Shown: positions 8,539 through 35,172 of the stretch, one piece after another
Position numbering within the stretch: position 1 is the first letter of the stretch
Layout: each line of letters starts with the position of its first letter
Source: Deltaproteobacteria bacterium
Lineage (GTDB): Bacteria > Desulfobacterota > B13-G15 > RBG-16-54-18
Direction: 5' to 3'
Assembly (NCBI GenBank): GCA_030672385.1
Contig: DAOVGN010000057.1
Span: 1 to 37,507 of the forward strand
Length of the DNA: 37,507 nt
The notes under the pieces: model-generated
What the model saw: only the letters and a program-made list of their open reading frames with translations
Databases searched by the model: none
What the model was told of the DNA's origin: nothing
Made by a program: the position numbers and the translations under genes

Positions 8539-8572
8539 CCTTCTTTCACCTCCCTTCCCCAAACCATAAAGC

Positions 8573-8782: not shown

Positions 8783-8784
8783 TT

Positions 8785-19540: not shown

Positions 19541-21255
19541 ATTTAAAGTGGAATATATTCCGCTGTCCTGCCGATTTGAGGGAGGAACTGGGCAAACAAC
19601 TGAACATACCCCCTGTGGTCGCCCAACTCCTTATCAAGCGTGGGATCACGGATCCTCGAGAAGGTGAGAGGTTCCTGTCGCCCTCTCTCAATCACCTCTA
19701 TGATCCCTTTGTCATGAAAGATATGGACAAGGCGGTGGCAAGGGTCATCCAGGCTATACAAGGGCAAGAGAATATTTTAATTTACGGGGACTATGATGTA
19801 GATGGTATAACTGCCTGTGCCCTCCTGGTGGATTTTTTGCGTTTATTAGGGATTCAAGCTTCTTATCATATCCCCCATAGATTGAAGGAGGGCTACAGTC
19901 TCAACCTAGAAGCCGTGAAGAAGTTTGCTGCCCAAGGAGTAGAACTCTTGATATGTGTCGATTGTGGGATCAGCGATCGAGAGGAGATAAAATTTGCCCA
20001 GCAATTAGGGATGGATACCATTGTAGTAGATCATCATGAGGTTCCAGCCCAACCCCCTCCAGCCAGTGCCATCCTCAATCCCCTACAGTTGGATTGCCCT
20101 TTCCCCTTTAAGGGGTTAGCCGGAGTGGGGGTGGCCTTCAATCTCGTTGTGGCGTTGCGCAGCAGGTTAAGGGAGTTAGGGTTCTGGCGGGACCGGGGGG
20201 AACCGAACCTTCGTCGCTACCTGGACCTTGTGGCCTTGGGGACTATAGCGGATATAGTCCCCCTGATGGATATGAATCGAGTCCTCGTGAAACATGGTCT
20301 GAAGGAATTGGAAAATAGCGCTCGACCAGGCCTCTCAGCCCTTAAAGAGGTGAGTCGTATAGGTGGGAGAGAGATCTCTACGGGGCAGGTGGCCTTTCGC
20401 CTTGCTCCCCGCCTCAATGCCGGGGGAAGGGTGGCCGATGGGCAGATGGGAGTAAAGCTCCTCCTGGCAAAAGAATATGCGGAGGCCAAAATGATCGCTG
20501 AAGAGCTGGATCGGGCCAATCGAGAACGCCAGGCCATTGAGGAGGGGATTTATAGAGAGGCCAAGGAGGTAATCCAACAAGAGGGGCTCATGCATCGGAG
20601 GAGTTTGGTTTTGAGCAGCGACAGCTGGCACCCCGGTGTCATCGGGATCGTCGCCTCCAAGCTCGCCGAAGAGTTCTGGCGGCCTACGATCTTGATCGCT
20701 ATGGATGGGGAGGAAGGGAAAGGGTCGGCGCGGAGCATAGTGGGATTCCACCTCTATGAGGGCCTCAAGGAGTGTGGCAAGCACCTGTTGGGGTTCGGTG
20801 GGCATAAATATGCTGCTGGCCTGAGGATCAGCCGCAATAAGCTCAAGGCTTTTAGTGATGGTTTTGAAAAGGCGGCAAAGGGGAAGGTAAAAGATGAAGA
20901 CCTCACCCCCACCATCTTTATCGACGCCGAGGTGCAGCTGAAAGAGATCACCCCCCAGCTCTTAGGCCACCTCGCCCTCTTTCCACCCTATGGAGCAGCT
21001 AATCCCAGGCCCCTCTTCTCCACAAGAGATAAACTCCCTCTATACGATGTCAGGACAGTGGGGAAGGACAGTCTAAAGTTTAAACTAAAGGAAGAAAAGG
21101 CGGCCTATGAGATCATCGGCTTTGGTATGGGATACCTCGCCCATCATCTCCCCCCCGAATTGAGGATAGCCTTTCATCCGCAGATGAACGACTGGAAGGG
21201 ATTAAAGAGGCTTCAATTAGAGCTGAGGGCTGTGGAAATAGACCGTGATGGTTAA
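19537..21255 (+). CDS. recJ: Single-stranded-DNA exonuclease RecJ
   Basis: A 572-residue DHH-superfamily 5'-3' exonuclease of normal length. Motif I is YGDYDVDGITAC (residues 83-94), motif II is VDCGISD, and motif III is VVDHHEVP with the DHH at 165-167. The DHHA1 motif GFGGHKYAAGL and a C-terminal OB-like domain follow. It acts in mismatch repair and recombination on single-stranded ends. It overlaps pyrD by four bases and converges on the amidase gene, with which it shares four bases at the 3' ends, leaving no room for a separate terminator. Confidence 0.95.
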   Translation: MNLKWNIFRCPADLREELGKQLNIPPVVAQLLIKRGITDPREGERFLSPSLNHLYDPFVMKDMDKAVARVIQAIQGQENILIYGDYDVDGITACALLVDFLRLLGIQASYHIPHRLKEGYSLNLEAVKKFAAQGVELLICVDCGISDREEIKFAQQLGMDTIVVDHHEVPAQPPPASAILNPLQLDCPFPFKGLAGVGVAFNLVVALRSRLRELGFWRDRGEPNLRRYLDLVALGTIADIVPLMDMNRVLVKHGLKELENSARPGLSALKEVSRIGGREISTGQVAFRLAPRLNAGGRVADGQMGVKLLLAKEYAEAKMIAEELDRANRERQAIEEGIYREAKEVIQQEGLMHRRSLVLSSDSWHPGVIGIVASKLAEEFWRPTILIAMDGEEGKGSARSIVGFHLYEGLKECGKHLLGFGGHKYAAGLRISRNKLKAFSDGFEKAAKGKVKDEDLTPTIFIDAEVQLKEITPQLLGHLALFPPYGAANPRPLFSTRDKLPLYDVRTVGKDSLKFKLKEEKAAYEIIGFGMGYLAHHLPPELRIAFHPQMNDWKGLKRLQLELRAVEIDRDG

Positions 21256-22445
21256 CCCCTCACCATCTTGGTATCCTGGGCATATCTCCTCAGTCCATCC
21301 AAGATAGCGGTAGCCAATTCATCGAGATACCTTTCGTCTCTAAGCCTTCTTTCCTCCATCGGGTTGCTGATGAAGGAGACCTCGATCAGTATAGAGGGCA
21401 TCTTTGCCCCGAACAGTACCACAAAGGGGGCCTGCTTCACACCGAGGTCTTTCACATCGCTATACCTCTCTTTAAGCCTACTTACCAAGGCCCCTTGTAC
21501 ATATTCGGCGAGTTGAGATGATTCATTCACTTTGGCATTAAGCATGAGGTCGTAGAGGATGAGCTGGAGGTCACTTATCTTCTCGGGTGATACCCCACTC
21601 TCTCTTGCTGCTAGGCGTAAGGCGTCCTCATCGGTGGTAAAGTTGAGAAAATAGGTCTCTATTCCATGAGCCTCTCTCTTCTTGGTGGCGTTGGCATGAA
21701 TGGAGACAAAGAGATCACCTCCCTTTGTATTGGCGATGGCTGTCCTTTCCTCCAAAGGTATGAAGCTATCATCCTGGCGAGTCATGACAACTTCCCACCT
21801 CAACTCTTTCCTGATCTTATCCCTCAACTTTTGGGCGATCTTTAAAACCACGTCTTTTTCCCTAAGACCTTTGGGCCCTATTGCCCCTGGATCTCCGGCC
21901 CCATGGCCAGGATCTATCACCACCCTGAAGGACCGGGGCCTCTGGAGAGGGGGGGGCTTGATGACCTTCGCCTTCACAGGCTTGCCCAAGACGTCTATCA
22001 CGATCCTAAAAGGATCGGTCAGGGAAAAGATCTTATAATCGATGAGACTCTCCAGATCCAGCACTACACGCACGGTATCGGGATTATATTGTCCGGCCCG
22101 AGCCCTCTTAAGGAGTCCATCCTCAATGGGGATCGGTTGAGTGAGCTGAGGGCTGAGTCTGGCAACCTTAAGGTCTATATAGAGTCGGTGGGGTTTTTTT
22201 AGCGTGGGGTCTTCTCTTAAGAGATGGTCCTTGTAGGTAACCTCTTGGTCGAGATCGATCACTATGCGGGTGTAAGCGGGATCGGACCAGTGCCTAATGC
22301 CCGTGACCAAGCTCTTTTTCTGAGATGTACCAGGAGGAATTATTTGAAATGCCAGAACCTGATCTTCACCAAAAAGGAGGGGATGTGAGGCTGAAACCCA
22401 CGACAAAAGACAGACAAACACTAATCCTGCAACCTTTTTTAGCAT
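21252..22445 (-). CDS. amiC: N-acetylmuramoyl-L-alanine amidase with AMIN domain
   Basis: A 397-residue periplasmic zinc amidase. A signal peptide (GLVFVCLLSWVSASHP) is followed by an AMIN domain at about residues 45-155 (TRIVIDLDQEVTYKDHLL, YKIFSLTDPFRIVIDVLG). An Amidase_3 catalytic domain then carries VVIDPGHGAGDPGAIG (zinc His), a metal-binding glutamate in LREKDVVLKIA, SIHANA (zinc His) and the catalytic glutamate in SILIEVSFISNP. It cleaves the peptide stem from peptidoglycan. AMIN domains target septal or secretin-associated wall. It is the last gene of the pil cluster, 77 bases after pilQ, so it may open the wall for secretin assembly (inference). Confidence 0.92.
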   Translation of the reverse strand: MLKKVAGLVFVCLLSWVSASHPLLFGEDQVLAFQIIPPGTSQKKSLVTGIRHWSDPAYTRIVIDLDQEVTYKDHLLREDPTLKKPHRLYIDLKVARLSPQLTQPIPIEDGLLKRARAGQYNPDTVRVVLDLESLIDYKIFSLTDPFRIVIDVLGKPVKAKVIKPPPLQRPRSFRVVIDPGHGAGDPGAIGPKGLREKDVVLKIAQKLRDKIRKELRWEVVMTRQDDSFIPLEERTAIANTKGGDLFVSIHANATKKREAHGIETYFLNFTTDEDALRLAARESGVSPEKISDLQLILYDLMLNAKVNESSQLAEYVQGALVSRLKERYSDVKDLGVKQAPFVVLFGAKMPSILIEVSFISNPMEERRLRDERYLDELATAILDGLRRYAQDTKMVRG

Positions 22446-22522
22446 TCCTCAAGACATCCGTAGAACTCCCCCAAGGGAGGCCCTTCAGAAAAGGGGAGAT
22501 AGTAACGACGAAAGGTCCTTTG

Positions 22523-25189
22523 CTAAGAAGTCGTGATCCTCCTCGGCTGTACGATCCGGGGGGCTATAAAGATCAAGAGTTCCTTTTTGTCCCTATCCTT
22601 CTTCTTCTTTTTAAATAGCCAGCCCAATAACGGGATTTTGTAAAAGACGGGGACCCCATGCACACTACCGGACTTTTCATAGGTATAGATCCCACCGATC
22701 ACCACTACCTCTCCATCCTTGACCAGGACCTCTGTCTGGGCCTCTTTTTTGTCGATGGCTGGTACACCCAGTACCGTATTGCTCCAGTCAGGGGTATCTT
22801 TAGAGATCTTGATCTCCATCCTTATGTGCCCATCAGCAGTCACATGGGGGGTGACAGTCAGTTTCAGGTTGGCCTCTATGAACTCGGTGGAGATCGTACC
22901 CTCCTCTGTATACTTCGGGTAGGGTATACGCAGACCCTGTTCTATATATGCCTCAGTATGATCCAGGGTAGTAACCCTGGGACTTGAGATCACCTGTCCG
23001 TCCCCTGTCTCCTCCAGGGCTGAAATCTTTACCTGCAGATATTTGGTATTTTTTATATTCGCAATTATCATTTCTATGGCACCACCATGGCCGCTACTTG
23101 CCCCAGCAGGTAGGTCCACCACAAAGTCTCCACTGCTGGCCCCCTTAGTCTCTACATTGACATTTTCTTTGGGAAAATCCTCCGTGATTTTCCCACCCCA
23201 CGATATTCCCAGCTCCCTGGCGAAGTTAGTGCTGGCCTCTATGACCTTCGCCTGGATCAAGATCTGAGGGGTCTGGGCATCCAGTTTTTGCACCAGGTCC
23301 TTCGCCTTTTCCACATTGGTTAGAATGTCCTTTACGATAAGGGTATTGGTGCGCTCATCCACGGTTACGGTCCCCCTGCCGCTCAGGAGGTCTTTGACCT
23401 TAGGGGCGAGTTCCGTAGCCGTGCTGTAGTTCACCGGTATCAATTCGGTGACAAGGGGTGCCAGCTCTTCGCTGGCCTTGGTAGCCGCTGCCCTCGCCAG
23501 TTTATCTTTTTGCAACCTCTCCAGGGGGGCTATTCGGATGACGTTGCCTATCATCTCCATCCCCAAGTTGTTCGCCTGCAGGATGACATCTAGTGCCTGA
23601 TCCCAAGGGACATCTACCAATCTGATGGTGACCTTTCCCTTTACATCCTCGGTGGTGATGATATTCAGGTTGCTCACCTCTGCAAAGAGCCGCAGTATGT
23701 TATCGATGTCTGCGTCCTTGAAATCCAGGGTGACCTTCTTCCCTGTATAGACCTTTTGTGCCACCCTCTCAGGGAGGGTGGCAACCGGCACAACCTTCGG
23801 CACCGGCGCTGGAGGGGCAACCTCCTCCTTTTTCACCTCTGCAGGTTTCTCCACCACTTTTACCTCAGGGGGCTTTTTGACGGTGACCACCTCAACAGGT
23901 TTGGGTTTTTCTACCCTAAATTCTTCAGGCCTCGCAAAATCGAGATAGATCCTGCTGTCCTCCTGCTGGACATCAAAGGCCACCATCTTGCACAACTTCA
24001 CAAGGATTCGGGCACTCTTTTGGTCATCAAGCACAATATTACTGGGGGTGATCATCACCACAGGGCTGGCGAATTCATGGGTATCTAAAGGTCTGGTAAG
24101 CTTTGAGGGGACAATCATTCCCTTTACCTCTACCAGCACCGTATCCTCTGGTCCCTTCACCACATCATAGGGGGCCTTCGCCGAGGTGCAGATAATAATC
24201 CTCGATTTATCCTTCAGCTGCTTAAAGTCTATCCCGGTGATCTCTCCCGTCACAGGTACTGCAGGAGGAACCTTTTCCTCCTTGACAACCTCCTTTTGGG
24301 GCGCAGGAACAGGAGGAACAGGGACCTCTGCCTTCACCTCCTTCCCCAACACGACCCTCAACTCATCACCGACGCGATCGATCCTGTGGGCAGGGAGTGC
24401 CTTGGTTGGAATATCGAGGACCACTCTGACCTTCTTGGGGTGATCTCCTAAACGCACCTTTTTCAGAAAAGGGGAATCGACCAAGACCGCCCTCGAAGGA
24501 AATTTTCTCTTTATCTTCCACAGATCAATTACCAAACGTGTCGGCTTCTGCAGAGCAAAGGTATTGTAATCTCCCACCCTTCCGTCTGTCTTCAAACTCA
24601 AGATCACTTTATCTTTTTGGGACTTATCTGCATAGACGCCGACTAAACTCTGAGCAGGAGCCATTTCTTTTGGGACAACTTTCTCCTTTACTGGTGGAGG
24701 GGCCTCTTCAATGATCTCTATTTCCTTCTTTTTCTCCTCTTCCCTGGCAATAAGAGGGCCCCGTTTACCAACGTCTATGTAGAGGAGGGGGCCTTCCTTT
24801 TGGACTTGATATCTGACTAGTTTATTCAGACATATACAGATCTTGGCATTCCCTTCCTGTTGAGTGGCAACGATCTCCTTTATTACATCATCACCAACCG
24901 TTATGGGGGTGGAGACTCCTTCAGCCAACTCCGTTTGTGGGATATCGATCACCAGCTTCAACGGTTGGGGGATGAGCTTAAAGAACGTATACACCAGAGG
25001 GGATTCCCCCTCGATGATCACTCTCTTGCCCTCATCCCTGTCTACTACCTCTATATTCTTAATGAAATTTTGGGGGACGGCTTTCGGCAAGGGTTGTACC
25101 TTTTCACGGGGGGCACAACCCATTACCAATAAGATAATGGAGATCACCACTACTCCACAGCACCCCTTCTTCTTATTAAGGCTCTTCAT
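22523..25189 (-). CDS. pilQ: Type IV pilus secretin PilQ with three AMIN-like domains and a lipobox
   Basis: An 888-residue outer-membrane secretin, longer than many PilQ proteins because of its N-terminal part. The signal ends LLVMGC, a lipobox-like site with Cys25. Three AMIN-like domains follow at roughly residues 45-130, 180-285 and 315-420, separated by Pro/Lys/Val-rich linkers. An STN/N0 domain (VTLDFKDADIDNILRLFAEV), N1-type ring domain, and the secretin channel with VPVFYKIPLLGWLFKKKKK and LLIFIAPRIV complete it. It forms the gated pore through which the pilus passes. AMIN domains bind peptidoglycan. The ATG overlaps the pilP stop (ATGA). Confidence 0.95.
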   Translation of the reverse strand: MKSLNKKKGCCGVVVISIILLVMGCAPREKVQPLPKAVPQNFIKNIEVVDRDEGKRVIIEGESPLVYTFFKLIPQPLKLVIDIPQTELAEGVSTPITVGDDVIKEIVATQQEGNAKICICLNKLVRYQVQKEGPLLYIDVGKRGPLIAREEEKKKEIEIIEEAPPPVKEKVVPKEMAPAQSLVGVYADKSQKDKVILSLKTDGRVGDYNTFALQKPTRLVIDLWKIKRKFPSRAVLVDSPFLKKVRLGDHPKKVRVVLDIPTKALPAHRIDRVGDELRVVLGKEVKAEVPVPPVPAPQKEVVKEEKVPPAVPVTGEITGIDFKQLKDKSRIIICTSAKAPYDVVKGPEDTVLVEVKGMIVPSKLTRPLDTHEFASPVVMITPSNIVLDDQKSARILVKLCKMVAFDVQQEDSRIYLDFARPEEFRVEKPKPVEVVTVKKPPEVKVVEKPAEVKKEEVAPPAPVPKVVPVATLPERVAQKVYTGKKVTLDFKDADIDNILRLFAEVSNLNIITTEDVKGKVTIRLVDVPWDQALDVILQANNLGMEMIGNVIRIAPLERLQKDKLARAAATKASEELAPLVTELIPVNYSTATELAPKVKDLLSGRGTVTVDERTNTLIVKDILTNVEKAKDLVQKLDAQTPQILIQAKVIEASTNFARELGISWGGKITEDFPKENVNVETKGASSGDFVVDLPAGASSGHGGAIEMIIANIKNTKYLQVKISALEETGDGQVISSPRVTTLDHTEAYIEQGLRIPYPKYTEEGTISTEFIEANLKLTVTPHVTADGHIRMEIKISKDTPDWSNTVLGVPAIDKKEAQTEVLVKDGEVVVIGGIYTYEKSGSVHGVPVFYKIPLLGWLFKKKKKDRDKKELLIFIAPRIVQPRRITTS

Positions 25190-25785
25190 AGTTTTTCCCC
25201 CTCCCCAGGGACATGTAATCTCAAAAGGATCTCCTTTGACCTGATATTGCCCAAATAATCTTTATACCGCTCCTCTATGATTACACTGTCTTTGAGGATT
25301 TTTTTCACTTTGCCGAAGTTTCTCCCGATATATGTCCCCTTCTCGACGATATAACCTTTCCCCTCAGAATCCTCCACCATCGCCCTTCCCTCTGTTTTTC
25401 CCACCAGGATGGCCACCAGTTTCAGTTGACTGAGGTCATATTTCTGCAGGGGGGTGAGGGATATCTGTTCCCCGGAGGGTTTTACAGGGGTTTGCATGGC
25501 GATGAATGGCTGAAAGGGGTCCCTCTTGCCTGTGGGATCGTAGACATAATGGCGCTTTTCCTCCTTTTGCTGCAAGGGCGATGTAGAGGTCGCCGGTGCC
25601 GGTGTGGGGACACTTGGTGAGGGTTTTCGGGATTTGGGTGCCAGCATAACCTTTTCCCGACCCTCTTCTTTTTTGCTATCGGTGCGGGGTGACCTGTCGC
25701 ATCCCCCCAGGATAAGGGCGATACCGATAATCAAGATGAGGGCGCAAGGCCCTTTTGACCTTCTTTCTCTAACCATTTTCACCAC
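25186..25785 (-). CDS. pilP: Type IV pilus inner-membrane lipoprotein PilP
   Basis: A 199-residue lipoprotein. The basic start and hydrophobic run LILIIGIALILGGC give a clear lipobox with Cys29. A proline-rich linker with PSPSVPTPAPATSTSP leads to the PilP homology domain, recognisable by YDPTGKRDPFQPF and GKGYIVEKGTYIGRNFGKV. It connects the PilMNO alignment complex with the periplasmic domains of the secretin PilQ. The start is uncertain: GTG at 25785 or 25782, or ATG at 25776. It follows pilO by two bases and overlaps pilQ. Confidence 0.92.
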   Translation of the reverse strand: MVKMVRERRSKGPCALILIIGIALILGGCDRSPRTDSKKEEGREKVMLAPKSRKPSPSVPTPAPATSTSPLQQKEEKRHYVYDPTGKRDPFQPFIAMQTPVKPSGEQISLTPLQKYDLSQLKLVAILVGKTEGRAMVEDSEGKGYIVEKGTYIGRNFGKVKKILKDSVIIEERYKDYLGNIRSKEILLRLHVPGEGEKL

Positions 25786-25787
25786 GC

Positions 25788-26381
25788 CTATTTCTTCTTG
25801 GCTCCCTCAACCTTTTCCAAATATCTATAAGTTGTGGCAACGCATGAGGTACTCAACAGGATCTCCCCCTTTTTCTTTGCGGGGGCCTTTACGAGAGAGA
25901 ACTGCGCGATGTTTACTATGCGCGAAAGGGTGCCCACATGATAAAAGAACATCCCTATCTTGTGATACGACCCCACAAACTTTAATTCCACGGGGACCTT
26001 AGCATAAAATTGCCCAGGCTGCTCCCCCTGAGGTTTAAACAAAAGTAATTCCAAGCCAGCCTCTTTGCCCAGATTGGATATGTTCTTCAACAGGTTGGGA
26101 ATCTCCCTTTTGTCCGGCAACTTGCTTAAGGCCTCCCTTAGATCCTCGCTCATCCTCCCCAACTCCTCCTTAAACTTGTCAAAGTCCTTGGCGATGTTGC
26201 TCTTTATATTTTTTTCTCTAATAAGGTCATTCAACTTCGATTCCTTGGCTTCAATCCGCCTTGTCTGCGGAAGGTGAAAGGCGTACACGTAGGTCCCTAA
26301 GATGGCCGCTGAGATCAGCAAGAGGATACCTACTTTTTGCGGTGTAGGTAACTTGATGATGGTGTCCAGAGAGACTGCCAT
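25788..26381 (-). CDS. pilO: Type IV pilus assembly protein PilO
   Basis: A 197-residue bitopic membrane protein. A single N-terminal helix (VGILLLISAAILGTYVYAF) is followed by a coiled coil (about residues 45-90) and a ferredoxin-like periplasmic domain. FYAKVPVELKFVGSYHKIGMFFYHVGTLSRIVNI is the conserved PilO signature region, here spanning residues of both core strands and helix. It pairs with PilN in the inner-membrane alignment complex. The ATG follows AAGGAGGATCCC, a strong ribosome binding site. Confidence 0.93.
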   Translation of the reverse strand: MAVSLDTIIKLPTPQKVGILLLISAAILGTYVYAFHLPQTRRIEAKESKLNDLIREKNIKSNIAKDFDKFKEELGRMSEDLREALSKLPDKREIPNLLKNISNLGKEAGLELLLFKPQGEQPGQFYAKVPVELKFVGSYHKIGMFFYHVGTLSRIVNIAQFSLVKAPAKKKGEILLSTSCVATTYRYLEKVEGAKKK

Positions 26382-26391
26382 GGGATCCTCC

Positions 26392-26931
26392 TTAAAGGGA
26401 AGTTGAACAGAGCAAACTAAACTTTTTTAGCCTGAGACCTCCCCTCACAAATTGTTCTGTCACCTCCAGTTCTACCCCGCCGAAATATCTGGAGCGCTCT
26501 AATAGGGTCATGAAATTAGCGATAGTCTCATTGTCCAACGCTACACCTACAATCTTCAGCTTCTTTCCATTCTTATCCAAGCTCTCGATCCACATCTTCT
26601 CCGGTATACTCTGGCTCAGTTCGTCTAGTACACATACCGCACTTAACCTTCCCGCTTCCAAATTATTGATGATAGTTAACTTTTTCTGAAGCTTGGCCTT
26701 TTTCTCCTTTAACTTGTCTATCTCACCCACCACCTCATTTATCTTAGTTATCTCTTCCTTGACCAAGTGCAATTGGGCATCAACACGTTTCTCGCGCTGC
26801 TTTGTAGACCAGTTAAGATAAGCGACAGCCACAAAGGTCAAAAAGAGGACGAGGATTAAGATGGAGGTCTGAAATCGAAGGGTTTCCTTTTTCCTCGCCT
26901 CCCGTACAGGTAGTAAGTTTATCTCTATCAT
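26392..26931 (-). CDS. pilN: Type IV pilus assembly protein PilN
   Basis: A 179-residue bitopic protein. The first residues, MIEINLLPVREA, are the cytoplasmic INLLP motif that binds PilM. A membrane helix (SILILVLFLTFVAVAYLNW), a coiled coil and a small periplasmic ferredoxin-like domain follow. It starts three bases after the pilM stop and precedes pilO by ten bases. Length and order are standard. Confidence 0.93.
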   Translation of the reverse strand: MIEINLLPVREARKKETLRFQTSILILVLFLTFVAVAYLNWSTKQREKRVDAQLHLVKEEITKINEVVGEIDKLKEKKAKLQKKLTIINNLEAGRLSAVCVLDELSQSIPEKMWIESLDKNGKKLKIVGVALDNETIANFMTLLERSRYFGGVELEVTEQFVRGGLRLKKFSLLCSTSL

Positions 26932-26934
26932 TTC

Positions 26935-27993
26935 TTATATCTTCCTTAAGGCCAACCCTACACCTACGGCCATTAAGGGGCCGATATCCTTTAAATACTC
27001 AGGATCAAAGGCTCGCAGGTTGACCGCTATGTTTGCAAATGGATTGATGATCTCTACTGGCAAATTAAGCCTCTCTCCCACAATCTGTTTTAATCGGGGG
27101 ACCTTGGAGCAGCCACCACCAAGGTAGATGCGAGCTATCCTCTCTTCGGGGAAAGTTGCGGTAAAGAAATCCAAAGACTTGGCTATCTCCAAGGCAATGG
27201 TGGAAGAGGTCTTGTCAAGCACCCTATCGATGGTATGCGGCGTTCCTTTATCCGATACACCACCTAATTTCAAGCCTTCAGCCTCCTCAAAATTTACGCT
27301 TAGCTCCTTTTGGATCTCTTCTGTGTAAAGATTCCCCCCGGTGGAGATATCCCTTGTGAAGAGGGACCTCCCCCCCTTAACGATATTGAGGTTCATTATG
27401 CTGGCTCCAACGTCACATAAGACCACCAAATCTCCTATCTCCAAGGGATAATTTAGTTCGTACATATTCTCCAGGGCAAAAGAATCTATGTCAATAATCG
27501 TGGGACTCAACCCTGCTTCCTTGACGACGGCGACATAATCTTCGATAAAATCTTTCTTGGCGGCAACGAGAAGGACTTCCATATGTTCCCCCATCTCCTT
27601 TTCCGGGGTTGATAATATTTGAAAGTCAATGTTCACATCATTTATGTCAAAGGGGATATACCGCTCTGCTTCCACTAGGACATTCTCCTCTAGCTCCGAT
27701 TCCGTCATCTTGGTGAGGGTGATCTTCTTCACGATTACCGAATGGCCGGACACAGAGACGGCCACCTCCCGCTTTTGAATCTTATAATTAGAGGCCAATT
27801 CCCTTATCGCCTCCACCACTGTTGTGGAATCCATCAAGCTCCCATCCACGATGGTCTCTGGAGGCAGGGGGTTTAGGCCTATGTTGTTGAGTTGGTAGCC
27901 TTTCCCTGTATCCTTGATGTTCACAAATTTGATGGCGCTGGTACCTATGTCCAGCCCTAGTACCTGTTTCCCTTTACTTGTAAAGAGTCCCAT
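26935..27993 (-). CDS. pilM: Type IV pilus assembly ATPase-like protein PilM
   Basis: A 352-residue actin-like (ASKHA) cytoplasmic protein. VLGLDIGTSAIKFVNI is the first phosphate-binding loop, VVLCDVGASIMNLNIV the second, and IYLGGGCSKVPRLKQIV the adenosine region. It binds the PilN N-terminus and forms the cytoplasmic ring of the alignment complex. It is the first pil gene, 91 bases after the end of the sigma-54 activator gene. Confidence 0.94.
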   Translation of the reverse strand: MGLFTSKGKQVLGLDIGTSAIKFVNIKDTGKGYQLNNIGLNPLPPETIVDGSLMDSTTVVEAIRELASNYKIQKREVAVSVSGHSVIVKKITLTKMTESELEENVLVEAERYIPFDINDVNIDFQILSTPEKEMGEHMEVLLVAAKKDFIEDYVAVVKEAGLSPTIIDIDSFALENMYELNYPLEIGDLVVLCDVGASIMNLNIVKGGRSLFTRDISTGGNLYTEEIQKELSVNFEEAEGLKLGGVSDKGTPHTIDRVLDKTSSTIALEIAKSLDFFTATFPEERIARIYLGGGCSKVPRLKQIVGERLNLPVEIINPFANIAVNLRAFDPEYLKDIGPLMAVGVGLALRKI

Positions 27994-28018
27994 CGATCCA
28001 TCCCCAGAAACCTTTTAA

Positions 28019-28047: not shown

Positions 28048-28084
28048 GCATTTTTATAGAGATTTTTTAAAAAATTTGTCCCTA

Positions 28085-29470
28085 TCAAGGATTTAATCTA
28101 TAGCGGTTCAACTTCTCCCTCAAGGTTGAACGGGAGATCCCTAAAACCCTGGCCGTCTCCGATTTGTTCCCCCTTTTCTCTTGCAGCACCTTTAGGATGT
28201 ATCTGCGTTCCACTGCGGCCAGAGGGCTGAACCCATCCACATTATCCACCCATTTCTCTCCTAGGGAGGAGGCCCTTTCCACTTTATTCCTCCTCAATTC
28301 AAGGGGGAGGTCTTCAGGGGCAATTAGATCTCCTCTAGCCAAGATCATAGCCCTTTCAATGACATTTTTCAGTTCTCGCACATTTCCCGGCCAAGAATAG
28401 GCCAGTAGGAGATCGAGGGCCTCATCGGTAACACTTCTTATCTCCTTTCCTAATTCCCTTCCTATCTTCTTGTTGAAATACTGTGTGAAAGTGGGTATAT
28501 CCTCCTTCCTATCGCGTAGAGGAGGTAAATCTATCACCATTACCTTGATGCGGTAATAAAGATCTTTGCGAAATTCCCCTGTCTCCACCAATTGAGCCAG
28601 CTCCTTATTGGTAGAGGTAATTACCCTTACATCCATTTTAATGTCTCTTTCCCCCCCTACTCTCCTGAGAAGATAAGTTTCTAAAAATCTCAGTAATTTC
28701 GGCTGAAGGGAGGGTTTCATCTCTGAGATCTCATCCAAAAAGACCGTCCCCCCTTGAGCTAATTCTATGAGGCCCGGCCTGTTCTCCTTGGCATCGGTAA
28801 AGGCACCTTTCTCATAACCGAAGAGCTCGGATTCCAGCAAAGCCTCAGGGATAGCGCTACAATTTATCTTAATGATGGGCTTTTGTCTTCGTCGGCTTTG
28901 ATAGTGGATGGCGTTAGCCACCAATTCCTTTCCTGTACCACTTTCACCCTGAATTAAGACAGGAGTTCGTGGGGTCTGACTTATCAAGGAGATAAGTTCC
29001 CTCACCACGTCCATCTGAGGGCTTACCCCATAGATCTCTTCCTCCTCTTCTTTATCCCTGTGTTTATAACGCAATCTGAGGAGCTCCCCCCTTAGTTCCT
29101 TGGTCTCCAAGGCCTTCTTGACCGCCAACCGCAATTCGTCTATCTCAAATGGCTTATTTATATAATCATAGGCTCCGGCCTTCATGGCTGCAACCACCGT
29201 TTGCACATCGGCATAGGCAGTCATCATGATAACAAGGGGATCGCTATCTATTTCCCTAATCTCCTTCAGTATGTCAAAACCGTCCATATCCGGGAGCTTT
29301 ATATCCAACAGGATGAGATCGAAGACCATCTTCCGGAGGCAATAAAGGGCATCTTCACCCTTCTGGGCAGAGGCCACTTCACAAGACATCTTTTCCAAGA
29401 CCTCTGATAGGGTGCGACACATCACCTCGTCATCATCAACAATGAGTATATTAGGCTTGACTTCCATCAT
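28085..29470 (-). CDS. Sigma-54-dependent response regulator (NtrC/PilR-like)
   Basis: A 461-residue three-domain activator. The receiver has VDDDE and the phospho-acceptor Asp56 in LLDIKLPD. The AAA+ domain carries Walker A GESGTGKE, GAFTDA (the sigma-54-contact loop) and a Walker B region TVFLDEISEM. A Fis-type helix-turn-helix is at the end (NKSETARVLGISRSTLREKL). It activates sigma-54 promoters when phosphorylated. It starts inside the histidine kinase gene (20-base overlap), so the two form a pair. Its position next to pilM resembles PilS/PilR control of pilin genes, but target promoters are not visible in the window. Confidence 0.94.
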   Translation of the reverse strand: MMEVKPNILIVDDDEVMCRTLSEVLEKMSCEVASAQKGEDALYCLRKMVFDLILLDIKLPDMDGFDILKEIREIDSDPLVIMMTAYADVQTVVAAMKAGAYDYINKPFEIDELRLAVKKALETKELRGELLRLRYKHRDKEEEEEIYGVSPQMDVVRELISLISQTPRTPVLIQGESGTGKELVANAIHYQSRRRQKPIIKINCSAIPEALLESELFGYEKGAFTDAKENRPGLIELAQGGTVFLDEISEMKPSLQPKLLRFLETYLLRRVGGERDIKMDVRVITSTNKELAQLVETGEFRKDLYYRIKVMVIDLPPLRDRKEDIPTFTQYFNKKIGRELGKEIRSVTDEALDLLLAYSWPGNVRELKNVIERAMILARGDLIAPEDLPLELRRNKVERASSLGEKWVDNVDGFSPLAAVERRYILKVLQEKRGNKSETARVLGISRSTLREKLNRYRLNP

Positions 29471-30527
29471 CAATCTTTACCGGGAGGTCTAGAATGAACG
29501 TAGAACCATTCCCCTGGGAACTCTCCACTTCAATCTTCCCTCCATGTCCCTCTACTATCTTATGGGTTATGGAGAGGCCTAATCCTAATCCCTTACTCTT
29601 AGTGGTAAAGAAGGGATCAAAGATTTTGGGGAGATGTTCGGGCTTTATCCCCACACCAGTATCCTTAACCTTGACCTGAATCCATCCTCTTGGTAGATTC
29701 CTTCTTTTTATCTCCACTGTCAATTTCCCTCCAGCTGACATAGACTGGAGGGCGTTGAGGAAAAGATTCATAAATACCTGCTGCATCTGATTAAAATCCA
29801 GGGGGATGGGCGGCAAACCATTGCCATATATCTCTTTGATTTTAATCCCTCTATTTTCTGCCTCCTTCGCCAAAAGACCCTTTACCTCTTTAATAAGATC
29901 CTGGATCTGACAAGGAGCAAGGTTAAGGTGTTTGGGCTTGGCAAAGGAAAAAAAGGTGCGCAACAGATCGTTGAGCCTGTCGATTTCTTTAATGATCCTA
30001 TCGAGATACTCCTTCCTAGGGTCATCGTTACCCAACTCTTCATTTAAGGCTTGGGCGGTGGTCTTGATTCCAGCCAGAGGGTTTCTTATCTCGTGGGCCA
30101 AGGTGGAGGAGAACTCCCCCAAATATGCCAATCGATCCATCTTCACTATCTCTCCATGCATCTTATAGACATGGGTCATATCCTGCAAACTTGCCACCTT
30201 TCCCCTCTCTCTCCCCAGATAGTCGTGATATGGAAAGATCGATAGCTTTAAGGGGGTGTTTTCCTTTCCCTTTTGGAAAAATATTGTTCCATCTCCCCCT
30301 TTCCCTCCCAGACTTTCATTTCCTTGTGACAAAAGGCTTAGAAGACGTTTGCCCAAGAGGAGATCTCCTTTTTTCCCCAGGATCTCCTCTGATGCCTTAT
30401 TGGCAAAGATGATTTTTTCCCCCCTGTCCAACAGAATCACCCCTGTCTCAATTCCATCTAAGATCCCTTTTACAAAGGGGCCAGGTCTTTCTACACTCCT
30501 GGATTTCTCGTTACTTTTAACAACCAA
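29451..30527 (-). CDS. Soluble NtrB-like sensor histidine kinase
   Basis: A 358-residue kinase without membrane segments. A PAS domain (about residues 20-120, GVILLDRGEKIIFANKASEEI) is followed by the dimerisation domain with phospho-accepting His145 in HEIRNPL. The ATPase domain has an N-box (MNLFLNALQSMS), G1 VKDTGVGIKP and G2 GLGLGLSI. The start is a TTG with GGAGGG nine bases before it; no nearby ATG fits. It sits 18 bases after the CheW-like gene and overlaps the response regulator, its evident partner. Being cytoplasmic, it must sense an internal signal or a neighbour. Confidence 0.93.
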   Translation of the reverse strand: MVVKSNEKSRSVERPGPFVKGILDGIETGVILLDRGEKIIFANKASEEILGKKGDLLLGKRLLSLLSQGNESLGGKGGDGTIFFQKGKENTPLKLSIFPYHDYLGRERGKVASLQDMTHVYKMHGEIVKMDRLAYLGEFSSTLAHEIRNPLAGIKTTAQALNEELGNDDPRKEYLDRIIKEIDRLNDLLRTFFSFAKPKHLNLAPCQIQDLIKEVKGLLAKEAENRGIKIKEIYGNGLPPIPLDFNQMQQVFMNLFLNALQSMSAGGKLTVEIKRRNLPRGWIQVKVKDTGVGIKPEHLPKIFDPFFTTKSKGLGLGLSITHKIVEGHGGKIEVESSQGNGSTFILDLPVKIDDGSQA

Positions 30528-30545
30528 GGAATCGGTCCCTCCGGT

Positions 30546-31823
30546 TTACAATGATATTTGCTCCACATCGAGAATCCATACCCCCCCCTTCCCTGATACC
30601 CCTTTCCCTAAAATGTAGGGTTTCCCCTCTATGGGGTGGTATTCGATCTCCTCTCGGGATATGGCTTGGTCTACGATAACTGCTGCCGTGCGGTCCTCTC
30701 TTCCCCTTACAATGAGTATAAGGGGTTTTTCTTCTGTCGATGGTCTAAGTTTGAACACCTGAAAGAGATTCAAAAGGGGTATTTCCATTTCCTTTAACTT
30801 AACTCTTCCGCTCTTGATGAAAAAATCAGCCACCCATTTTTTTACCAGGAAGCTCTTCAATATCTGGTTGTCGGGAAGACCAAAGACAACACCCGAGGCT
30901 CCGAAGAGTGAGACGGCCATCGTTGGTACCTTTGCGGGTTCCTGTATAGCGATATCTGATGGTGAATACGATCCCCTCTCTAACCTCCCATTTAAATCTG
31001 CTATCTCTTCTCCCCCCCCTTCCAGTTCCCCTCTAAATTCTTCCCCAGACCCAAATTGCCTCTGCAGCTCTGTCTTATAGGAGGTTATTGCCTGGTGGAT
31101 ATTCCCCAATCTCTTATTCTCCTCCTTGACCGCTTTTTCCAATTCCTCGATTCTGTCTATTAATCTCTTTATTCCTTCAAAAGATGTCTTTTTTTCCTCA
31201 GGAGGTTTCTGGGTTACTATCTCTTCCCCTCCCATCTCTCGTATCTCTACTTTCTTCTCCTTTGGAGCCTTTTCCTCTATTCCCAGTCTCTGAAACTCCG
31301 CCTTTAACTCCTTCACCAAGGCAACTTTATCGATCTCAAAAGAAAACCGCTCATCAGTCATCCCTTTAGCGACCTTCCAAGACTTTTGCAAGAACTTTAA
31401 GGCAGTGGGGTTAAGTTTGCTTTCATCTAAGAGGAGTTGATAAAGTACCTTTTGTATCAGAATTATAACAATCTCTAATTCATCAACCCCATGGGGAAGC
31501 CTTCTTAGATCTTGGAGGAGGGTTAAGGCCCTGTTTATGTGTTTGGAGCTGATATCCCATTCCAAGGTCAACAATTGTGCCTCTACTTCCTCCAGCTTTT
31601 CCTGAAGCGCACGGGAGGCCAACCCCCTCTCTTGTGTCGGAGGTGCTGTTGGGGAAGGATAATCTCTGTTCGCTGCCCTCACCTCTTTGTAAGGGGCATG
31701 AACTCCTTTAGGCTGGGTGACCGGATTTGCCTGACCTTCTTTTTCTACAAATAGAGTATCTACAGCGGCCTCTATATCTCTTTCTAGATCCGATAAGTCC
31801 CAACTATTATCTTTATCATTCAT
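30546..31823 (-). CDS. Coiled-coil protein with C-terminal CheW-like domain
   Basis: A 425-residue cytoplasmic protein. Residues 1-70 are acidic and disordered-looking. About 75-190 are helical, with LEWDISSKHINRALTLLQDL. About 210-265 form a coiled coil (IKRLIDRIEELEKAVKEENK). The last ~120 residues, with VSLFGASGVVFGLPDNQILK, MEIPLLNLFQVFKL and AAVIVDQAISREEI, read as a CheW-like beta-barrel adaptor: hydrophobic entry strand, IPLxxLxxxF core, and a VDxxxxxEE end. The ATG overlaps the mglA stop (TAATG). CheW domains dock kinases and receptors, so this may connect MglA with a signalling array. I know no named family with this architecture. Confidence 0.7.
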   Translation of the reverse strand: MNDKDNSWDLSDLERDIEAAVDTLFVEKEGQANPVTQPKGVHAPYKEVRAANRDYPSPTAPPTQERGLASRALQEKLEEVEAQLLTLEWDISSKHINRALTLLQDLRRLPHGVDELEIVIILIQKVLYQLLLDESKLNPTALKFLQKSWKVAKGMTDERFSFEIDKVALVKELKAEFQRLGIEEKAPKEKKVEIREMGGEEIVTQKPPEEKKTSFEGIKRLIDRIEELEKAVKEENKRLGNIHQAITSYKTELQRQFGSGEEFRGELEGGGEEIADLNGRLERGSYSPSDIAIQEPAKVPTMAVSLFGASGVVFGLPDNQILKSFLVKKWVADFFIKSGRVKLKEMEIPLLNLFQVFKLRPSTEEKPLILIVRGREDRTAAVIVDQAISREEIEYHPIEGKPYILGKGVSGKGGVWILDVEQISL

Positions 31824-32443
31824 TAAAATTGCCTATCTGCTAGTGTTTTTTTGCTCACATCCTTAACCACCAATTTGCTTATCTCCCTCAGGGTTTCAAA
31901 AACCCCTTGCCCCTTGAGGGCACTGGCAGGGAAAGAAGGTACCTTTAGATAAGAGTTGAGATCCCTCTCCATTTCTGCGATGGTTAGCACAGGTATATTA
32001 CTCCCCTCCAAGTCCCTTTTATTGTATTGCATGATCAAGGGTAGATTGGTGACGTCTAATCCCCTCTCTTTGAGATTATAGGCCAAATTTTCCAAGCTCT
32101 CAATGTTCTTTTCCCTCTGCACCCGCATAGAATCAGCCACAAATACCATTCCATCAACCCCTCTTAAGACCAGTTTTCTCGTAGCGTCGTAATGCACCTG
32201 TCCTGGTACAGTGTAAAGTTGCACTCTGATCGCAAAATCCCTGATTCTACCTAAATTAAGGGACAAAAAATCAAAAAATAGTGTTCTATCACCCTTTGTG
32301 TCTATAGAGACCAATTGCCCCCTTATATCATTATTAGTGCTGTCATAGACAAACCTCAAATTAGTGGTCTTTCCCCCGAGACCAGGACCATAATATACGA
32401 CTTTGCAGTGGATCTCTCCTGAACTAAAATTGATGAAGGCCAT
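31823..32443 (-). CDS. mglA: MglA-like small Ras GTPase
   Basis: A 206-residue GTPase of the MglA family, near the usual length (about 195). The P-loop is GPGLGGKT (residues 20-27), the switch region contains VSIDTKGDRTLFFDFL, the G3-like segment is TVPGQVHYDATRKLVLRGVDG, and NKRD gives base specificity. The TVPG in place of the Ras DTAG is typical of MglA. In Myxococcus, MglA-GTP marks the leading pole and controls type IV pili and gliding. It follows mglB, its GTPase-activating partner, by 13 bases. Confidence 0.95.
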   Translation of the reverse strand: MAFINFSSGEIHCKVVYYGPGLGGKTTNLRFVYDSTNNDIRGQLVSIDTKGDRTLFFDFLSLNLGRIRDFAIRVQLYTVPGQVHYDATRKLVLRGVDGMVFVADSMRVQREKNIESLENLAYNLKERGLDVTNLPLIMQYNKRDLEGSNIPVLTIAEMERDLNSYLKVPSFPASALKGQGVFETLREISKLVVKDVSKKTLADRQF

Positions 32444-32456
32444 TATTTATATTGAA

Positions 32457-32870
32457 CTACTCCCCTCTATTCCTCTCTAAGATCTCCCTGAAGATATTAC
32501 GCAATTCATGTATCACTTTTTCTGTTCTCAATCTTACCAGCCCTAAGGTGGTCCGGTCATCAAATAATGTCACCATGATAAATTCTGTGCCGATCTTAGA
32601 AAAATGTACATTCTCATTTTTCCCTTTGTGGAAGAGAAGGGCAAATTCGTCTTCTCCCAGAAGTCTCGCTATCTCTGAAGTGGCACCAAAATTGGCTGCG
32701 GTTAGGGCGGAAAGGGCGATGACATCCAACGTTGAGGGGTCACCGCTGGAGGCGATCAGCTGTCCCGACCTATCGATTAATAGGGCACAATGGGCCCCAG
32801 AACTGCTTAACATCTTGTCAAGGCACCTCTCAATCTTGACAAGATCTTGATCAGAAAGGATGAGATTCAT
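32457..32870 (-). CDS. mglB: Roadblock/LC7 protein MglB
   Basis: A 137-residue single roadblock/LC7 domain: helix, the strand ALLIDRSGQLIASSGD, a central helix with AANFGATSEIARLLGEDEF, then VHFSKIGTEFIMVTLFDD. MglB homodimers stimulate GTP hydrolysis by MglA and sit at the lagging pole in Myxococcus. The ATG follows GAGGTAGGA. It lies immediately before mglA, the standard order. Confidence 0.92.
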   Translation of the reverse strand: MNLILSDQDLVKIERCLDKMLSSSGAHCALLIDRSGQLIASSGDPSTLDVIALSALTAANFGATSEIARLLGEDEFALLFHKGKNENVHFSKIGTEFIMVTLFDDRTTLGLVRLRTEKVIHELRNIFREILERNRGE

Positions 32871-32929
32871 TTCCTACCTCGTTTGCTGGTTTATGGATGT
32901 ACAATTTTAGCCCATATATTTTTGTAATC

Positions 32930-32958
32930 TCTATAGCATTTTACATGCTTTATGTAAA
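32930..32958 (-). promoter_or_regulatory. Possible promoter of mglBA
   Basis: On the minus strand TTTACA (32953-32958), 17 bases and TATAGA (32930-32935). The -35 is embedded in an inverted repeat TTTACAT-N5-ATGTAAA (32940-32958), which could be an operator. It lies 60 bases upstream of mglB. Confidence 0.4.
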
Positions 32959-32993
32959 GAAAGGATGTTCATAAATCAATCAGTGGTCAAAAA

Positions 32994-34016
32994 TCAAGGG
33001 CCGAAAATTTCCGGCATGCTCGATTTCAAGCCAAGATCTTCTATCCTCCCGCTATACTTTTCAATGGTAGATCGCAGTGTAAAGTTTATCCTTGTGTGCA
33101 ATTCATCCTTGGTGATCTTCAAGGGCGCCTTTTCCAAAGTCAGGTCTATACAATCCTTTATCCCTCGGAGAAACTCCTCCAAGGGCACCTTCCCCCAAAA
33201 TTTTATCTCTCCATTCTCATACTCAAATTCGGCTACAAATGGATCGAGGAACGGATAGTCCTCGGATTTTTCCACCTGAGCTCTTTTGAAACCCTCGCGG
33301 AAGGATCCTTTTTGTGTGGTCAGGCCATCCACCAAGCCCTCAATAATATCCATAACCTCTTGTATCACCTCTATGGCCCCTTGCAGGTCTCTGGTTTGAG
33401 CTATCTCCGTCCGTTCAGCCCCCCTCTCCAACAGGCCAGCGCGATATACATTAAAGCTTGCACCAATCTTTTGGGCGTCATCTATTACCTTGGACAATAT
33501 CTCCTTGCCATACATCGTTTTATTTCCTGCACCAGACATGGCAACCTCTAAAATCTCTCCTTCTTGTAAAAAAACAACCCCCTTGCCTTTGTCGCCAGTT
33601 AAAACTATATCGATGTATCCTGAATGTTTTTCCTTGCTCAGCTTTTCTACTAATTTATCCAAGCTGGTGAACTCCGTGGACAAATTTTTGTATATTGCTT
33701 CTTCCGTAGATGTGCTGGCCAAAATGGTCACCATCTCTGGGGCCAATCTATGGACATTGATCCTTCCATCCTTTTGCTTGGACATGAGGATGATATTCTC
33801 TACTGCATCTTCCCCTACCCTTCTCGTACCTTGCGTCTCTTCGATAGCATTCACTATCTCTCCAGCCTCCAAAAACAGGACCCCTTCATGATCCCAAGAG
33901 GAGAGTTGCACGTAACCGTCGAAGTCATCCTCTTTTAACGATTGGAGAAAACTGTTGAGATCGACAAAAGAGGTCCTCAGATTGTCATAAACCGCTTCTC
34001 CTTTTGGTAAGATCAT
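32994..34016 (-). CDS. Double-PATAN (DUF4388-like) protein
   Basis: A 340-residue cytoplasmic protein with two similar N-terminal units at about residues 10-105 and 115-205. Both end in the PATAN pattern: YVQLSSWDHEGVLFLEAGEI in the first and YIDIVLTGDKGKGVVFLQEG in the second. The remaining ~130 residues are helical with a negatively charged FEYENGEIKFWG segment and no recognised domain. PATAN domains are found in bacterial motility and two-component regulators and often bind partner proteins. The ATG follows AGGAGG. It lies between the REC-PATAN-roadblock regulator and mglB, suggesting a role in the same switch. Confidence 0.65.
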   Translation of the reverse strand: MILPKGEAVYDNLRTSFVDLNSFLQSLKEDDFDGYVQLSSWDHEGVLFLEAGEIVNAIEETQGTRRVGEDAVENIILMSKQKDGRINVHRLAPEMVTILASTSTEEAIYKNLSTEFTSLDKLVEKLSKEKHSGYIDIVLTGDKGKGVVFLQEGEILEVAMSGAGNKTMYGKEILSKVIDDAQKIGASFNVYRAGLLERGAERTEIAQTRDLQGAIEVIQEVMDIIEGLVDGLTTQKGSFREGFKRAQVEKSEDYPFLDPFVAEFEYENGEIKFWGKVPLEEFLRGIKDCIDLTLEKAPLKITKDELHTRINFTLRSTIEKYSGRIEDLGLKSSMPEIFGP

Positions 34017-34047
34017 ATGTAAAACCTCCTCTTTCTTTATTAGGACA

Positions 34048-35172
34048 TTAAACTTGGAACTTGGTTGGTTTCTGCTCTAAGATATTTCTGGCCCTAGAAT
34101 AAAACTCATCAGCGGTGGTATTATTCAACAGTGTGACCATCAGAAAGAGGTAATTGTACCTCATGATGATAGATTGATTATTTTTGTGCCCGAGATTTAT
34201 CCTCAATAGTTGATGGTTCCCCACGGATTTTTCCAACCTGGCAGCCATGGTGGACAATAGCGAGGGGATTAAGGCGTCCTTTTCGTTAAAATCTTGATCA
34301 TTGATGGTCAATACCCTTCCTTTTTCGTTGACCCACATCCCCTTTTCATAGCCGTTAATACTGGCCAACATCTTCAACAATCGTTCCAGCAATTCTTTCG
34401 TTTCGATCTTTTTGTCGAGATCCTCAAATGCCTTCTCTACCTCCTGCAGTAAGACCGAGCTATCTCTGTCTTCTGTGACAGTGCTTTCATCCCTTCTTCT
34501 CATACCCTCCAACAGGAGGTGTTCCCAACGGTCCGTTATAGTCTCTTTGGGGATTGGAACTCCCATCTGAGAGATGAACCTCCCATCTTTCCAGCTCAGC
34601 ATGGTGTACAGGGCTTCTTCTCCCTCCAGGTCCCCTATTTTCGCATGAACGATCTCGCCGTTCCTGAAATAGATCATACCCTCTTCATCACCCCTGGAGA
34701 CGGCGATTGACATGCTAAACCTGCCCAAACATCCCATCTGGATGACATCAACGAGTTGCAGGTCGAGGACTTGACCTACAAAACCACCCCTCTCCTCCTC
34801 AAGGGCCTTAAGGATAATGTTCCTGATATCAGATATCTCAAAAGGTTTCTCGATGTAATGGTATGAACCTCTCTTGGTAGCCTCTTCTTGGACTTCCGGT
34901 GATCCGTAGGCCGTCATGATGATTACCTTGGTCCACGGATACTCTTCCCTTATCTTTGACAGTAAATCGAGTCCATTGATGTCTGGCATCCTTATGTCTG
35001 TTACCACCACATCGATACGAGATTTTTGTAGGGTCTGAAGGGCCTCTGTTCCTGTATTGGTGCTGATGAGCTCATATTTATCTCTATCTTTGGCCAAGGT
35101 TTTGGTCATACTCCAAGTCAGGGTCTCTTCATCGTCCACTACGAGGACCTTCCTTGTCTCTTTTTCTGCCAT
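34048..35172 (-). CDS. Response regulator with PATAN and roadblock-like domains
   Basis: A 374-residue regulator. The receiver (residues 5-125) has VVDDEE and the phospho-acceptor Asp59 in TDIRMPD. A classic PATAN/DUF4388 domain follows at about 130-225, from GGFVGQVLDLQLVDVIQMG through GMIYFRNGEIVHAKIGDLEG to LSWKDGRF. The C-terminal 110 residues look like a roadblock/LC7 domain (GYEKGMWVNEKGRVLTINDQ, then the FLMVTLLNNTT strand). I start at the ATG at 35172, with GAGGT upstream, instead of a TTG at 35244. No DNA-binding domain exists, so output must be by protein contact. A roadblock next to mglB and mglA suggests it competes or joins in control of MglA. Confidence 0.75.
   Translation of the reverse strand: MAEKETRKVLVVDDEETLTWSMTKTLAKDRDKYELISTNTGTEALQTLQKSRIDVVVTDIRMPDINGLDLLSKIREEYPWTKVIIMTAYGSPEVQEEATKRGSYHYIEKPFEISDIRNIILKALEEERGGFVGQVLDLQLVDVIQMGCLGRFSMSIAVSRGDEEGMIYFRNGEIVHAKIGDLEGEEALYTMLSWKDGRFISQMGVPIPKETITDRWEHLLLEGMRRRDESTVTEDRDSSVLLQEVEKAFEDLDKKIETKELLERLLKMLASINGYEKGMWVNEKGRVLTINDQDFNEKDALIPSLLSTMAARLEKSVGNHQLLRINLGHKNNQSIIMRYNYLFLMVTLLNNTTADEFYSRARNILEQKPTKFQV

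Follow-up and report, generated by a model that had tools for sequence, protein, structure and literature searches.

The window analysed here is an entire contig (C63, 37,507 bp) from a metagenome-assembled genome of 1.58 Mb with a completeness of 93%. It carries on its minus strand a block of 13 genes, running from 35172 to 21252, in which an MglA-type switch, a two-component pair and pilus genes stand together. In block order these genes encode a response regulator (RR) with receiver (REC), PATAN and roadblock parts (REC-PATAN below), a double-PATAN protein, MglB, MglA, a coiled-coil/CheW-like protein whose gene we call ccX, a histidine kinase (HK), an NtrC-type RR, PilM, PilN, PilO, PilP, PilQ and AmiC (Table 1; G, C, L and f label genomes, contigs, loci and families, and G000 is the window's own genome). 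The first-pass annotation had placed these genes on one strand with short gaps between them, and both points were borne out: Pfam/NCBIfam searches and profile comparison recovered every named gene, and the gaps range from -23 to 123 bp (in block order 31, 123, 13, -1, 18, -23, 91, 3, 10, 2, -4 and 77 bp). The widest lie before mglB (after the double-PATAN gene, 123 bp), before pilM (after the NtrC-type RR gene, 91 bp) and before amiC (77 bp), and internal promoters could lie in the wider gaps, i.e., those before mglB and pilM. A scan of the block for sigma-70 promoters and terminators gave counts at shuffle level and was uninformative. For the REC-PATAN gene, a longer form from a TTG start at 35244 is possible.

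The block was followed through related genomes, in which open reading frames (ORFs) were called mechanically and of which many assemblies are fragmentary. The survey of gene neighbourhoods that the first-pass annotation had called for found the neighbours not scattered in relatives: seven families of the phylum (f1, f2, f9, f13, f21, f74 and f95) share a similar block order, and it holds at about 20-60% protein identity across them. The order REC-PATAN, mglB, mglA, ccX, HK, RR, pilMNOPQ is found in f9 (many genomes), f74 and f95, while f21 shows two variants, i.e., pilMNOPQ first in L038 and pilQ-HK-RR-REC-PATAN-mglBA-ccX in L135, and f13 has double-PATAN, mglA, ccX, pilMNOPQ, amiC. Both mglA and pilM are present in 35 of 59 related genomes. 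In G000, G001, G008, G028 and G053 (four families) the two genes share a contig and a strand, at a distance of 1-8 kb; random placement would give well under one such pair, against the five observed. In G006 and G007 contig ends within the RR gene cut the block in two, and pilMNOPQ lie beyond the break. A close relative is contig QMLM01000203 of 'Deltaproteobacteria bacterium isolate B11_G15', the single contig that a ccX scan of named genomes gave.

A phylum-wide search of 395 genomes with the ccX profile alone led to 25 loci being fetched, 23 of them with sequence upstream of ccX, and mglA lies directly before ccX in 23/23 (one locus shows only the mglA 3' end, the last 45 codons; in L135 and L138 mglA sits under a longer antisense ORF). 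Judged by gene neighbourhood, ccX is thus a conserved partner of mglA. The window MglA has the features of Group 1 (PMC4316618): an intrinsic arginine finger beside the G2 threonine (GDRT, in GDRTLFFDF), a G3 motif TVPGQ, and a coupled mglB located 13 bp upstream. The relative in L038 has GDKT in place of GDRT. The window MglB is the sole Robl_LC7 match in the genome and has no C-terminal tail past about residue 137. In an MglA tree of 56 sequences, which is a tree of one gene only and leaves out L138 (f13), every ccX- or pil-linked MglA falls into one clade of 35 rows with support 100/100, and M. xanthus MglA stands in a separate clade of unlinked genes, i.e., the window MglA does not group with the Myxococcus type and, on sequence relationships, is a distinct subfamily. 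Six rows of the 35-row clade have no called ccX neighbour; three of these are cut by or near contig ends or have ccX a few kb off. Since the pil-linked MglAs occupy early branches of the clade (f1/f2, f9/f74/f95, f21) and loci with ccX but without pil are nested within it, the pil linkage looks old and later lost. That PATAN genes lie near some mglA genes was known before (PMC4316618).

The AlphaFold (AF2) model of ccX has a mean pLDDT (predicted confidence) of 73, with folded domains mostly at 80-93. It begins with a short helix bearing the motif LEKEIEAAVDxLFVE, followed by a five-helix P1/Hpt-like bundle (residues 71-179), a 44-residue helix forming a long coiled coil (215-258) and a C-terminal beta domain (301-418) that Foldseek matches to CheA P5 and CheW (best 2e-9). 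For the bundle, Foldseek returned CheA P1 structures (3kyi_A, 1i5n, 8c5v_C) with probabilities of 0.92-0.99 and E-values of just 0.17-0.6, and because these E-values are weak the bundle was put to profile comparison. The hhalign alignment with CheA P1 of related genomes was full-length at E 3e-4, with a low probability of its own (18%); unrelated control profiles reached E 0.29 or worse and 0/100 column shuffles came near. These are two weak-to-moderate lines, and the homology of the bundle to CheA P1 is not proven. No phospho-accepting HxxKG motif was seen in the ccX alignment (19 rows), and the rows read have Q, L, E or V at the position aligned to the P1 phospho-histidine. The P4 ATPase domain (HATPase_c) is not in ccX, in which Pfam finds only CheW. 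Members of the wider ccX group are full-length homologues (probability 99.7, E 1e-26), P5-like end included, although Pfam finds nothing in them, and the N-terminal motif and an LEWEI helix are kept over many families. Thus, ccX looks like a CheA without its kinase, i.e., a P1-like bundle minus the phospho-histidine, a coiled coil and a P5/CheW domain.

The CheW-like label in the first-pass annotation was right as to the domain, but the protein is not a usual chemosensory adaptor, as no CheA or receptors were found in the genome. The only CheW domain in the window's genome (93% complete) is that of ccX, and no methyl-accepting receptor (MCP) domain was found there. The genome likewise gave no Frz-type input of a Myxococcus-type polarity system (CheA, receptor), and the block itself is free of gliding and chemosensory genes. 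Chemosensory input through the CheW-like domain was considered and rejected when the genome search gave no receptors or CheA; a plain CheW adaptor was ruled out by the P1-like bundle and the coiled coil. The block carriers G001, G006 and G007 have one CheW domain each, and four family members without the block have none. Large CheA-like genes and several REC-PATAN genes adjoin mglA-ccX-TPR-PilB in L139:363-7345 (f101) and L146:12357-19161 (f56), and therefore some relatives have a chemosensory kinase next to the module.

The block has pilM, N, O, P and Q in order, as expected of a type IVa alignment complex. The genes pilB, pilT, pilC, a membrane-bound pilS and pilR lie together on contig C101 (pilC, pilS and pilR read from sequence), and pilin-like genes lie outside the block, elsewhere in the genome. 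With these genes on another contig and no chemosensory array found, the 'complete signal-to-pilus route' first ascribed to the block was too strong a description. In relatives, a further link to the motor appears: in eight loci of seven families (f29, f30, f39, f56, f62, f78 and f101), genes for TPR-MshEN-T2SSE (PilB-type) ATPases of 768-797 aa lie beside mglA-ccX. The ATPase gene is directly downstream of ccX in 7/8 loci, and in most cases the two genes overlap or are at most 11 bp apart; because the ORF calls of f62 do not include ccX, direct contact is read in six families. The TPR repeats were seen by Pfam without a strict cut-off in the two proteins examined and by our own TPR profile in 8/8. 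These long 'TPR' genes were at one point taken for SgmX homologues, a candidate that was dropped when Pfam gave MshEN-T2SSE in the eight loci. In Myxococcus, PilB is taken to the pole by SgmX, a TPR protein to which MglA-GTP binds (PMC7519303), and, by analogy, a TPR-bearing PilB-type ATPase beside mglA-ccX fits what a direct MglA-PilB link would look like. A separate short TPR gene adjoins the block in f1, f9, f21, f74 and f95 and is a candidate for an SgmX-type MglA effector. Its copy in the window's genome (308 aa, 68% identical to the G001 copy) is the first gene of contig C69, and because it opens that contig, C63 and C69 probably adjoin. Two further arrangements were seen: in f64 (L136:11855-14011) ccX is followed not by a PilB-type ATPase gene but by one for a fusion of TPR protein and Ser/Thr protein kinase, and in the window's genome a receiver-T2SSE-receiver fused ATPase (858 aa) has an Hpt-like gene and two pilin-like genes as its neighbours (L091:156-5270, G000:C93).

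The receiver Asp, Thr and Lys of REC-PATAN are intact in 14/14 aligned rows, and the protein is 54-59% identical between f1 and f9. Its C-terminal roadblock part is invisible to Pfam, and because Foldseek searches with REC-PATAN were swamped by receiver domains, this part was tested by profile comparison, which aligned it with MglB at E 2.5e-4 over 120 columns (controls 0.09 or worse); the AF2 topology agrees. Families f1, f21, f74 and f95 have the roadblock tail. The double-PATAN protein is kept in f1, f2, f13 and f74 and absent from f9. The HK is a soluble PAS-domain protein in which no clear membrane span is seen, and its H-box HE[IL]RNP is present in 18/18 orthologues; its gene overlaps that of the NtrC-type RR by 23 bp in the window, and in L038 it stands directly before REC-PATAN, with the NtrC-type RR not between them. 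The NtrC-type RR has an intact receiver along with its AAA+ and Fis-type helix-turn-helix (HTH) parts, and its loop reads GAFTDA, not GAFTGA, in 14/14 orthologues. At the same place of the loop, the G266D substitution makes E. coli NorR constitutive and leaves it active with sigma-54 (PMC2941729). RpoN is present in the genome, which has 10 sigma-54-like sites against 0 for a reversed control pattern; such -24/-12 sites lie shortly before two pilin-like genes, in L163 (G000:C83) and L157 (G000:C19), and one more lies before a PilZ-like gene (all read by eye). Sigma-54 autoregulation of the block was rejected, the window sites being at chance level. A second HK/REC-PATAN pair with a roadblock-like tail lies off the block (L089:3373-5486, G000:C95), and in G001 REC-PATAN is immediately preceded by an additional roadblock-like gene and a PATAN gene (L035:4990-6228).

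Upstream of the block lies a gene for a PhnD-type periplasmic binding protein, a possible input to it, which is in the same place in G006 (L033) and not there in G001 or f9. Further upstream lie a Cache-TM-HAMP (TM, transmembrane) gene and a second copy (37084-37507) that is cut by the contig end; the two are near-identical repeats (91-99%), 893 bp apart, and this repeat probably broke contig C63. At 5479-9945 the window holds genes resembling those of anaerobic benzoyl-CoA degradation (ring hydrolase, alcohol dehydrogenase, acyl-CoA dehydrogenase), as judged by eye.

Table 1. Genes of the block, its upstream neighbours and the TPR-PilB-type ATPases of relatives (positions are those of the window unless a locus is given)
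Feature	Position	Strand	Basis
REC-PATAN-roadblock RR	34048..35172	-	Pfam Response_reg 4e-27, DUF4388 1e-21; start ATG 35172
Double-PATAN (DUF4388) protein	32994..34016	-	Pfam DUF4388, two stretches; second below cut-off in genome scan
MglB, roadblock GTPase-activating protein	32457..32870	-	Robl_LC7 6e-12; M. xanthus MglB 6izw_B 3e-28, residues 3-133
MglA, Ras-like GTPase, Group 1 type	31823..32443	-	Pfam Ras/Arf; best PDB match M. xanthus MglA 5ymx_A 2e-67
ccX, putative kinase-less CheA-like scaffold	30546..31823	-	Pfam CheW 3e-6 at C-terminus; AF2 model; Foldseek; hhalign
Soluble PAS histidine kinase	29451..30527	-	Pfam PAS-HisKA-HATPase_c
NtrC-type sigma-54 RR	28085..29473	-	REC-AAA-Fis HTH; Sigma54_activat 4e-65, HTH_8; GAFTDA loop
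pilM	26935..27993	-	PilM_2 1e-79
pilN	26392..26931	-	PilN 9e-20
pilO	25788..26381	-	PilO 2e-40
pilP	25186..25785	-	PilP 9e-17
pilQ secretin	22523..25189	-	TIGR02515 7e-127, above cut-off
amiC-like N-acetylmuramoyl-L-alanine amidase	21252..22445	-	NF038267 4e-59, below model cut-off
PhnD-type periplasmic binding protein, upstream of block	35319..36188	-	Phosphonate-bd 5e-50
Cache-TM-HAMP protein without output domain	36194..37063	-	HAMP 1e-14
TPR-PilB-type ATPase	L044:11885-14224		
TPR-PilB-type ATPase	L047:626-2971		
TPR-PilB-type ATPase	L137:11069-13414		
TPR-PilB-type ATPase	L139:11471-13864		
TPR-PilB-type ATPase	L143:6768-9074		
TPR-PilB-type ATPase	L144:6381-8714		
TPR-PilB-type ATPase	L145:11094-13436		
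TPR-PilB-type ATPase	L146:6367-8694		

We propose, with a probability of roughly 0.55, that the block is an MglA-type module dedicated to the control of type IVa pili and has been inherited together with the pilus alignment complex as a single unit. What is shown here is gene content, conservation, domain make-up and the absence of a chemosensory array; the interactions and spatial role that follow are inferred. The HK would phosphorylate REC-PATAN and/or the NtrC-type RR; REC-PATAN, through its PATAN and roadblock parts, would bias the MglA/MglB cycle or the pilus motor; MglA-GTP would recruit or reshape ccX; and ccX would join the switch to the cytoplasmic base of the pilus (PilM/PilN, or PilB via a TPR protein), a link that would license pilus extension at chosen sites. 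The NtrC-type RR, alone or with the separate PilR, would drive sigma-54 promoters, e.g., those before pilin-like genes. The role in polarity or reversal first suggested for the block is a putative one, taken from Myxococcus by analogy. As for ccX itself, we put forward tentatively, and with the odds against it, that an ex-chemotaxis kinase has become a new class of small-GTPase partner, a direct adaptor from MglA-GTP to the pilus base (PilM/PilN) or to the TPR-PilB-type motor, whose P1-like bundle might dock the REC-PATAN receiver and so bring a two-component signal and a Ras-type switch onto one scaffold.

We favour the module because its gene order is kept in seven families, with ccX behind mglA at every locus that could be read, the linked MglAs in a single fully supported clade, and ccX resembling CheA P1 and P5; because a short TPR gene stands beside the block, RpoN is accompanied by sigma-54-like sites before pilin-like genes, and HK and REC-PATAN are adjacent in L038; because the TPR-PilB-type ATPases beside mglA-ccX match the MglA-SgmX(TPR)-PilB chain of Myxococcus (PMC7519303); and because cyanobacterial PATAN-receiver proteins are tied to the pilus apparatus, PixE being linked to PilB1 (PMC7690835). 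Several observations weigh against it. The G008 block lacks HK, NtrC-type RR and REC-PATAN; pilMNOPQ lie elsewhere in loci that have ccX only, and in G009 (same order) they occur without adjacent mgl genes; the -24/-12 sigma-54 sites in the window are not beyond chance; and the roadblock part is missing from REC-PATAN of f9, so this part is not essential to the design.

A doubtful but still plausible alternative is that the block houses two independent routes, with HK and NtrC-type RR controlling the transcription of pilin genes in the manner of PilSR, and REC-PATAN-Mgl-ccX acting post-translationally under another kinase. The 23-bp overlap of the HK and RR genes, the presence of RpoN with sigma-54-like sites before pilin-like genes, and both the second HK/REC-PATAN pair on C95 and the canonical pilSR on C101 are in keeping with such a split; the direct HK-REC-PATAN adjacency in L038, with no NtrC-type RR between, and the joint absence of HK and REC-PATAN from the G008 block speak against it. 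Rather unlikely, in our judgement, is that MglA and ccX tune pilus output (number, extension activity, adhesion or DNA uptake) and set no polarity, the polarity label being carried over from Myxococcus. Thermus MglA/MglB are reported, in a title cited within PMC11112851, to affect pilus functions and competence, and the block is without gliding or chemosensory genes; however, MglA-MglB pairs are best known for spatial switching, and placement would account just as well for the conserved link to the pilus base.

We consider it improbable that the genes are linked for organisational reasons alone, as a hitch-hiking cluster that descent has preserved with no direct functional coupling. All pil-linked MglAs may descend from one ancestor, and mglBA-ccX and pilMNOPQ are apart in some relatives, yet the order persists across the seven families despite their divergence, and where pilMNOPQ are gone the next gene is often pilus-type (TPR-PilB-type) and not random. 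Least probable is that ccX is a decaying CheA remnant or the ordinary CheW adaptor of a chemosensory array, as its P5/CheW fold might be taken to indicate: the genome has no MCP and no other CheW domain, G001, G006 and G007 have a single CheW each, and an N-terminal motif and LEWEI helix kept over so many families are unexpected for a remnant.

Compared with known systems, the proposed module resembles that of Myxococcus xanthus, in which MglA/MglB act with SgmX, FrzS and SopA: both have a Group 1 MglA, one MglB and type IVa pilus output, with a TPR partner and PilB as the next steps (PMC7519303, PMC11580455), and PATAN proteins surfaced in an association screen around SgmX (PMC11580455). It differs in having one operon with pilMNOPQ, an MglA of another clade, no Frz-type CheA or receptors, and ccX, which is not described in the Myxococcus work read for this analysis; no RomR/RomX-type gene of the Myxococcus module is among the block genes, although the RomR-C profile was not searched for. 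With CheA/CheW, ccX shares the P1-like bundle, coiled coil and P5/CheW domain, whereas it lacks the P4 kinase and phospho-histidine, has no receptors in its genome and is encoded with mglA. The actinobacterial conservons (CvnA-D) also combine an HK, a roadblock protein and an MglA-type GTPase in one operon, but the window MglA is of Group 1 with an arginine finger, not Group 2, the kinase is soluble and the block is pilus-linked. Cyanobacterial PATAN-CheY regulators (PixE, LsiR, PixG) have receiver and PATAN in common with the block and are pilus-directed (PMC7690835); here the order is REC, PATAN, roadblock, and the gene is encoded with mglBA. The pilSR/pilMNOPQ clusters of type IVa pili share the pilMNOPQ order and an NtrC-type two-component pair, and the pair in the block, with its soluble kinase and GAFTDA-type RR, is additional to the canonical pilSR beside pilBTC on C101. 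Our reading of the open-access literature yielded no description of an mglBA + pilMNOPQ block, of the ccX family or of TPR-PilB-type fusions beside mglA, and this, with the distinct MglA subfamily, is in keeping with the earlier suggestion that the system may be undescribed.

The route by which MglA-GTP acts on the pilus machine has yet to be settled: in Myxococcus, direct contact of MglA with PilM, PilB or PilT, and of SgmX with PilB or PilM, was not detected (PMC7519303, PMC11580455). A block that holds mglBA, one conserved scaffold and pilMNOPQ, with a TPR-PilB-type ATPase in the same spot in relatives, names candidate links that are testable with few proteins. If the reading is true, a CheA-like protein would have been reused as a GTPase partner without kinase or receptors. 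The conservation of the block in at least seven families suggests a dedicated and hitherto undescribed mechanism that sets the place or time of pilus formation.

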